Assembly: GCA_937976095.1 (NCBI GenBank)
Contig: CALJSV010000074.1
Coordinates: 1 to 64,000, forward strand
Direction: 5' to 3'
DNA from: an uncultured Clostridia bacterium
GTDB lineage: Bacteria; Bacillota; Clostridia; Lutisporales; Lutisporaceae
DNA length: 64,000 bases
The notes under the pieces are model-generated. The model worked only from the letters and a program-made list of their open reading frames with translations, did not search any database and had not been told where the DNA came from. This document shows, one piece after another, positions 3,398 to 5,035 of this stretch. Both the position numbers and the translations under genes were made by a program. Position 1 is the first letter of the stretch. Each line of letters starts with the position of its first letter.

Positions 3398-4666
3398 ATG
3401 AATGGGTTAATCAATTTCTTAAATGTAAGGTTTAAGGATTATATTGGTTTGCCACGGTCAATTTATATTCTTTTTATAACAAGAGTAGTAAATGCACTGG
3501 GTAATTTCGTATATCCTTTTCTTACAATGTTTCTAACTCAAAAGCTTGGTTTCAGCGCTACTGAGGCCAGCAACTACTTTACCTACAGCTTTGCCTTTAC
3601 AACAGTTGGCTCTTTGATAGGCGGAAAGCTTGCAGACCACCTTGGCAGAAGAAACCTTATGGTGCTGTTCCAGGGGATGGCAGCAATATGCTTTGGTATG
3701 TGCGCCTTCGTCAGTGAGCCAATATGGATACCAAGACTTCTTATAGTAGCGGGCTTCTTCGGAAGTGCAGCACAGCCTGCAAACTCCGCTATGGTTGCTG
3801 ACCTAACAAACAAGGCTAATAGAAAGTATGCCATGTCATTATTATATCTTGGCATCAATATAGGGTTTACTGTTGGTCCTACTCTTGCAGGGCTGCTTTA
3901 TAACCTCCATACTGAATGGATATTCTTAGGCAATGCTGCAGCCAATATAATTACAGTGCTGCTTTTATATTTCTTCATTAAAGAAACCATTCCTACAGAA
4001 GAAGATATTGAGATAAGTAAGAAGCTTAATGACGATGAGGGTGCAGAGTCGAAATGGCTTTTGGTTGCACTATTGAGAAGACCTGTATTGCTTTTATTTA
4101 TGGTTGCGAGATTTGTGTACTCCTTCGTATATGCATCCATAGGTTTTGCTATTCCTCTTCAAATAAGCAAAGCCTTTGGAACAGAGTTAGGACCTTCATA
4201 CTTTGGTTATGTTATGTCCTTTACAGGCTTTGTGGTAATAGCTTTTACGCTTCCATCCATTAGGCTTACATCGGGCAACAAGCCTGTGGTTAACGCAGCT
4301 CTTGCAGGAGCCTTCTACGCAGTTGGCTTCGGAATGATGGCTTTTGCAAGCGATTTATACTTGTATTTTATAGCTGGCTTCATTTTTACTGTTGGTGAAA
4401 TACTTGATGTAACAAACTCCGGCGTTTATCTGGCGAACCACTCTCCAATTAACCATAGGGCCAGGTTTAATTCAGTTATGCCGCTTTTGATGAGCTTGGG
4501 ACACACCCTTGGAATAGTGGCCTTCGGTAGAATAATTGATGCATATGGACTAAGTACCCTATGGTTTATATGCTTTTCCATGGCGGCTGTCGCAGCAGTA
4601 TATATGCTGTGGTTAAACATCTTTGAAATAAAATATGAAGCAAAAAAAACAGGTATGGCTGCTTAG
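3398..4666 (+). CDS. MFS transporter, drug-exporter-like
   Basis: 422 residues with about 12 predicted membrane helices. The loop between helices 2 and 3 reads GGKLADHLGRRNLMV, the classic MFS motif (G-x-L-a-D-x-x-G-R-R). Another conserved segment is GINIGFTVGPTLAGLL, similar to the motif-C region of exporters. The ATG at 3398 is chosen because GGGGGT lies 8 bases upstream; an upstream TTG at 3383 lacks a ribosome site. The gene stands alone between terminators and converges on the selenoprotein gene; its stop codon lies inside the loop of that gene's terminator. The substrate cannot be told. Confidence 0.87.
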   Translation: MNGLINFLNVRFKDYIGLPRSIYILFITRVVNALGNFVYPFLTMFLTQKLGFSATEASNYFTYSFAFTTVGSLIGGKLADHLGRRNLMVLFQGMAAICFGMCAFVSEPIWIPRLLIVAGFFGSAAQPANSAMVADLTNKANRKYAMSLLYLGINIGFTVGPTLAGLLYNLHTEWIFLGNAAANIITVLLLYFFIKETIPTEEDIEISKKLNDDEGAESKWLLVALLRRPVLLLFMVARFVYSFVYASIGFAIPLQISKAFGTELGPSYFGYVMSFTGFVVIAFTLPSIRLTSGNKPVVNAALAGAFYAVGFGMMAFASDLYLYFIAGFIFTVGEILDVTNSGVYLANHSPINHRARFNSVMPLLMSLGHTLGIVAFGRIIDAYGLSTLWFICFSMAAVAAVYMLWLNIFEIKYEAKKTGMAA

Positions 4667-4676
4667 CCATACCTGT
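4641..4676 (-). terminator. minus-strand terminator of the selenoprotein gene
   Basis: A perfect 12-bp stem (4649-4660 with 4665-4676, ACAGGTATGGCT) with a 4-base loop. Read on the minus strand it is followed by a run of T (the A-tract at 4642-4648). It overlaps the last codons and stop of the MFS gene. On the plus strand it lacks a good T-run. Confidence 0.82.
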
Positions 4677-4680
4677 TCTG

Positions 4681-4962
4681 TTAACATCTAGCTTTTACCC
4701 CATTAGGATATAGTACAAAGCCCTTTCTTAAAAAGCCCTTTTGATAATCGATGTCTATAGAAGTAAGCACACCTGCAAGCTCTTGCTCTATGGCAAACCT
4801 CATGCCGTGCGCCTCTATGAGTATATCAGGAGTATCCGGCCCACCCGGAGCCAGTGAAAATACAGGGCCGGCTCAGCCACCACCATGCACCCTTATCTTA
4901 AAATCACTAATGCCTGTTCTCTCCAGCTCAAGAAGAGCCTGTTCTGAAATATTAATCTTCAT
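4681..4962 (-). CDS. HesB/IscA-like selenoprotein (in-frame TGA read as Sec)
   Basis: A 93-residue A-type (HesB/IscA) domain protein interrupted by one TGA at 4873-4875 (codon 30). Before it the frame reads RVHGGG; after it AGPVFSLAPG, ending in an IDIDYQKGFLRKGFVLYPNG segment typical of the family. The TGA sits exactly where HesB/IscA proteins have their conserved Cys (GGC-SG), so UGA should encode selenocysteine. HesB-like selenoproteins are an established prokaryotic family. Support comes from a GGAGG site 7 bases upstream of ATG 4962, a SECIS-like hairpin directly after the TGA, a TTGCTT-17-TATTAT promoter and a dedicated terminator. A standard gene caller would split or miss it. The likely role is thiol/selenol chemistry related to Fe-S or persulfide handling (inferred). 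The selA/B/C/D genes are not in this window. Confidence 0.88.
4836..4875 (-). promoter_or_regulatory. candidate bacterial SECIS element after the UGA
   Basis: Immediately downstream of the TGA (minus strand) the arm at 4871-4865 (CCGGCCC) pairs with 4842-4836 (GGGCCGG), 7 bp. Inside, CACU/GGUG can form a small upper stem whose loop begins with GG, about 21-22 bases from the UGA. This fits the bacterial SECIS rule of a short hairpin with a G at the loop start, 16-37 bases from the UGA. The fold was read by eye, not computed. Confidence 0.7.
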
Positions 4963-4984
4963 ATAAAAACCTCCATTACACTAC

Positions 4985-4999
4985 TACCCTGTAGGGGTA
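4985..4999. promoter_or_regulatory. CsoR-family-type operator at the selenoprotein promoter
   Basis: TACCC-TGTAG-GGGTA, a 5-5-5 dyad in the context TACCCTGTAGGGGTAT. It matches the pattern of CsoR/CstR operators (TACCC-N5-GGGTA, as at B. subtilis copZA). It lies just downstream of the minus-strand -10 (5012-5007), over the likely transcription start, where a repressor would act. Which CsoR-family member binds (copper or persulfide type) cannot be told. Confidence 0.6.
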
Positions 5000-5006
5000 T
5001 ATATTA

Positions 5007-5035
5007 ATAATACTATATTTACACATTGCAAGCAA
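5007..5035 (-). promoter_or_regulatory. promoter of the HesB-like selenoprotein gene
   Basis: On the minus strand TTGCTT (5035-5030), a 17-base spacer and TATTAT (5012-5007). Its start point would fall in the CsoR-type dyad, about 38 bases upstream of the ATG. Confidence 0.6.

Follow-up and report, generated by a model that had tools for sequence, protein, structure and literature searches.

A predicted HesB-like selenoprotein gene in an uncultured clostridial bacterium, with a conserved bacterial SECIS hairpin and a CsoR/CstR-type operator

Introduction

HesB-like selenoproteins are a known family (PMC1794560, PMC1242214, PMC1914089), as the original prediction for the locus treated here also held, with members in Desulfovibrio, Geobacter and Alkaliphilus. 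The family carries the motif UxGP and is represented by the model TIGR01911, and the rules for the bacterial SECIS element have been published as well (PMC13188914). In Methanococcus maripaludis, mutagenesis and 75Se labelling revealed a HesB member, whose function is described as "not clear" (PMC11097638). CstR-type members of the CsoR family of regulators sense reactive sulfur species (PMC10318464). No description of a CsoR-type operator before HesB-like selenoprotein genes was found in the literature, and a search for a published link between CsoR and selenoproteins gave nothing relevant.

The gene described here, termed hesB, comes from an uncultured Clostridia bacterium (Lutisporaceae). 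The whole stretch of DNA analysed, 64,000 nucleotides in length, is referred to as the window. With high confidence, the gene is predicted to encode a HesB-like selenoprotein in which TGA is read as Sec30, and sequence comparison shows the protein to be a new, divergent member of the family already known.

Results

The reading frame and its signals

The features of the locus are collected in Table 1. The minus-strand frame consists of ATG and 28 codons, TGA as codon 30, and then 63 codons followed by TAA. The single TGA and the coordinates are those originally predicted, and the predicted ribosome binding site and terminator are found as well. For the terminator hairpin 3′ of hesB, the expectation over all such sites in the region is 0.3. 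A promoter belonging to the gene itself, which had also been proposed, is plausible, with a candidate recognised by eye, but the promoter scan of the region gave no sigma-70-like consensus match on the minus strand.

Table 1. Features of the hesB locus, in window positions
Feature	Position	Strand	Details
HesB-like selenoprotein CDS (predicted)	4681..4962	(-)	93 aa + TAA; TGA read as Sec30; GGUAGP = UxGP motif; AlphaFold2 model similar to IscA
In-frame TGA (Sec30)	4873..4875	(-)	aligned with first conserved Cys of E. coli IscA; TGA in 19/19 homologues
Bacterial SECIS hairpin CUGGCUC-CGGGU-GGGCCGG	4836..4854	(-)	7 pairs, −8.9 kcal/mol, UGA to loop 25 nt
Ribosome binding site GGAGG	4970..4974	(-)	read from sequence
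Intrinsic terminator	4646..4679	(-)	15-pair stem + T run
Possible promoter TTGCTT-N17-TATTAT (weak)	5007..5035	(-)	by eye; absent from consensus scan output
CsoR/CstR-type operator ATACCCCTACAGGGTA	4985..5000	(-)	predicted; conserved in 17/20 loci; genome has one other perfect copy

On its own strand hesB contains no called frame of at least 60 aa, and its family model scores lie below the curated cut-offs (see below). For these reasons the gene would be missed by standard annotation, as had been anticipated.

Read-through frames were accepted with at least 20 codons before the TGA and at least 45 after it, and without overlap with a large open reading frame. Only hesB passes this filter in the 64-kb window. 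This bears on a change of the genetic code, whereby TGA would be read as Trp or another ordinary residue. A frame that stays open when TGA is taken as a sense codon does not on its own identify the amino acid, but the single read-through frame, the presence of selA, selB, selD and tRNA-Sec in the genome, and the alignment of the TGA with Cys, which also occupies this position in paralogous Cys forms, all argue against a code change. This explanation was considered and rejected, with a probability close to nil.

Conservation of the TGA codon

A search of 60 related genomes, several of them incomplete, gave 19 homologues; each contains a single TGA, and its codon position is the same in all. The relatives include Lutispora saccharofermentans, Lutispora sp. 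and Clostridia MAGs; L. saccharofermentans (G021, L119), which is in culture, carries this gene too. Identities to the window protein are 29–45%, and the divergences are therefore old. The dN/dS ratio after the TGA is 0.09–0.27 between close pairs, a sign of purifying selection, and thus the region following the stop is translated and selected. The original prediction had named loss of the TGA-equivalent codon or of the downstream frame in close homologues as evidence against it; both are kept in all homologues found.

The TGA could also have arisen in an ordinary HesB gene of the Cys type, by nonsense mutation or through a sequencing error, the locus then being a pseudogene or an artefact, and the genome is indeed a fragmented draft (272 contigs, 80% complete). 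However, 19 independent genomes share the TGA at this codon, the sequence after it is under purifying selection, the SECIS hairpin is conserved and covarying, and the genome carries the full Sec machinery. The explanation is refuted by conservation and was rejected as extremely improbable. The same evidence upholds the original reading of TGA as Sec.

Two other arrangements were seen. L018 and L019, from two genomes with identical protein sequence, display CGULS in place of UxGP and are without the C-terminal Cys and the operator. In G203:C1 a Sec-type and a Cys-type HesB gene are adjacent, at positions 511149–511448 and 511850–512146.

The SECIS hairpin and the selenocysteine machinery

The window hairpin satisfies all four rules for bacterial SECIS elements of PMC13188914, with CGGGU as the loop. 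The alignment comprises 31 sequences: the first search supplied 19, counting the window, and another 12 are Sec-type genes from the class. All 31 can form a common hairpin with a 5 nt loop and GG at loop positions 2–3, which begins 21 nt downstream of the first TGA base. Pairing cells make up 88.5% in this alignment versus 26–48% in slid controls. Double-change cells number 19 versus 4.4 expected, a count reached in none of 500 shuffles, and the covariation score is 0.333 versus 0.177. Several of the covarying changes are non-synonymous, e.g. GTT/GCT (Val/Ala) paired with GAA/GAG, and therefore protein constraint alone is insufficient to explain the covariation. Rfam gave no SECIS match above the gathering score. 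The unconstrained minimum-free-energy fold of the window's 61 nt prefers another structure, with a stability not greater than that of shuffles; thus the case for the SECIS rests on its conservation.

The genes selD, selA and selB and a tRNA-Sec gene (anticodon TCA) are present on one contig of the window's genome (G000:C126), with SelD, SelA and SelB all above trusted cut-offs. The occurrence of selA, selB, selC and selD in the genome, on which the original prediction depends, is thereby confirmed. selB is above cut-off in 23/23 genomes checked.

The selD gene (L027, about 940–2001, G000:C126) itself contains an in-frame TGA, and SelD of this genome is likely a selenoprotein as well. Several tRNA genes that are weak matches to the tRNA-Sec model are found approximately 0.1–1.7 kb from hesB in G018:C265, G003:C34 and G005:C7.

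Protein family and predicted fold

The read-through protein shows matches to NF038090 (E-value = 2.5e-9, 37.4 bits versus a curated cut-off of 85), TIGR01911 (E-value = 2.6e-6, 28.0 bits versus 66.35) and TIGR00049 (E-value = 9.4e-8, below the curated cut-off). These are matches to HesB/IscA models, with scores that fall short of the TIGR01911 and NF038090 cut-offs. The NF038090 cut-off is passed by no genome in the class sample. A PF01521 search at E ≤ 0.001 misses hesB in its own genome, which is due to divergence and the stop and not to absence of the gene. The protein displays GGUAGP, with Sec (UGA) at the conserved Cys of the UxGP motif by which the family is defined in the literature.

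An AlphaFold2 model, with Cys in place of Sec, has a pLDDT of 89.4 and matches 1x0g, IscA with a [2Fe-2S] cluster (E-value = 4e-7). Profile models and predicted structure thus both show the HesB/IscA domain and fold. The TGA falls at the cluster-binding Cys of HesB/IscA proteins, as had been proposed, and Cys93 corresponds in the alignment to the first of the C-terminal Cys residues in E. coli IscA. The C-terminus, originally described as normal for the family, is normal for the selenoprotein clade with its one terminal Cys, but the CGC motif of IscA is absent. Where IscA/SufA carriers of the A-type have three Cys ligands, the window protein has only Sec30 and a single Cys at the C-terminus. 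Most Sec forms of the class likewise end in one Cys, while Cys forms carry CG(S/G)xC-type tails; L135 is a Sec form with a CGSC tail. In the tree the Cys rows group together, with weak deep support.

The IscA fold, together with the lack of any other PF01521 match in the genome at E ≤ 0.001, would agree with a conventional A-type Fe-S carrier that functions like IscA/SufA and has Sec among its three ligands. The missing C-terminal CGC pair, of which a single Cys is left, speaks against this, and such a function appears unlikely. With only Sec30 and Cys93 present, a redox-active or two-ligand relative of the A-type carriers would therefore be more likely than a standard carrier. A redox role as such may be put forward, but is doubtful.

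The upstream operator

The palindrome ATACCCCTACAGGGTA is situated between the promoter region and the ribosome binding site of hesB, and hesB thus has the conserved C/G-tract palindrome near the promoter that is characteristic of CsoR/CstR regulons. In 17 of the 20 loci, all in the family of the window gene, TACCC-N5-GGGTA with up to two mismatches lies 36–44 nt ahead of the start; in control segments of the same loci it is rare or absent. The loci without it are L018, L019 and L020, the last with a similar repeat of different spacing. Outside this family, Sec-type genes (L129, L131–L134) have the operator as well, and none was found before Cys-type HesB genes. About 4 changes of the operator are needed on the tree.

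The perfect 16-mer ATACCC-N5-GGGTA has two copies in the window's genome, one before hesB and one before a CstR-like gene (C24), and this pair of sites supports a link between the two genes. The genomes of relatives contain 0–8 exact 15-mers each, and for many of them the reversed control gives a similar number; the motif count alone is therefore not evidence, and it is the place and the conservation of the motif that count.

The second copy precedes the gene of a PF02583 regulator (G000:C24, 89.8 bits), at a distance of 13 nt from its TTG start. In the CsoR alignment its metal-site positions hold Cys, Tyr, Cys, versus Cys, His, Cys in copper CsoR. The regulator gene is the first of an operon (L082, 155–1262) that continues with RseC-like (PF04246) and thioredoxin genes, and this gene order is kept in most relatives. 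A TACC-N7-GGTA-type site is present before orthologues of the CstR-like gene, and in several relatives the centre of the hesB operator is unlike that of the operator before the CstR-like gene. A same-genus genome (G001) is without hesB and without the CstR-like orthologue, and G012 and G015 have the CstR-like gene and no hesB match. In relatives the operon is often followed by glyA.

Alternatively, the hesB operator could be bound by a copper-sensing CsoR and not by the CstR-like protein, hesB then being a copper-stress gene. The genome does contain copA-copZ-csoR clusters with copper CsoR regulators, and a related palindrome, TACCTAACTAGGGTA, precedes copA on C107 and is probably used by a copper CsoR. 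But in this genome the hesB site agrees with the CstR-like site in 14/15 bases and with the copA site in about 10/15, and the copA operators in genus g7 show the opposite arrangement (TAGGGTAGGGG..TATCC). Regulation by a copper CsoR is on this comparison improbable, though it carries some weight. The best candidate for the regulator acting at the hesB palindrome is the CstR-like protein of G000:C24, an assignment that from the sites and gene contexts appears quite possible while falling short of probable. Because a copper CsoR probably uses the related copA site, and because the centres of the hesB and CstR-like sites are not alike in other genomes, the assignment of the regulator is an inference.

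Discussion

In the proposed mechanism, the hairpin located 25 nt after the UGA would guide SelB, so that selenocysteine is inserted at residue 30. Sec30 would be positioned in the pocket that accommodates the first cluster-binding Cys in IscA, and the product is predicted to keep the IscA fold with only Sec30 and one conserved C-terminal Cys, Cys93. Transcription would probably be repressed by a CsoR-family regulator through the palindrome, with thiol, persulfide or metal stress as the presumed inducing signal.

A tentative suggestion is that the clostridial Sec-type HesB shares with thioredoxin a CstR-like regulon, which probably responds to persulfides or thiols, and that HesB has a role in reactive-sulfur, selenium or thiol homeostasis and not in routine Fe-S assembly. 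The function of HesB-like selenoproteins has been stated to be unclear (PMC11097638), and the question becomes testable through the conserved operator, which ties the Sec form to a redox operon of a CsoR-family gene.

The window protein shares with the HesB-like selenoproteins (TIGR01911/NF038090), e.g. MMJJ_08070 of Methanococcus maripaludis, the IscA/HesB fold, Sec at the first conserved Cys, the UxGP motif, a bacterial SECIS and a Sec-decoding genome. It differs from them by its divergence (best score 37 bits versus 85), its single C-terminal Cys and the CsoR-type operator before its gene, for which no earlier description was found. With the carriers IscA, SufA and ErpA it has in common the fold (1x0g, 2d2a) and the first-Cys position, occupied here by Sec, but unlike these it is without the C-terminal CGC and keeps one terminal Cys. 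Compared with CstR/CsoR regulators (DUF156, PF02583), the G000:C24 candidate has Tyr in place of the copper-site His, and its operon contains RseC-like and thioredoxin genes, with rhodanese and sulfite exporter genes not seen there. It is nevertheless a PF02583 protein, and the palindromic C/G-tract operator near the promoter is present here as in the CstR/CsoR family (PMC10318464).
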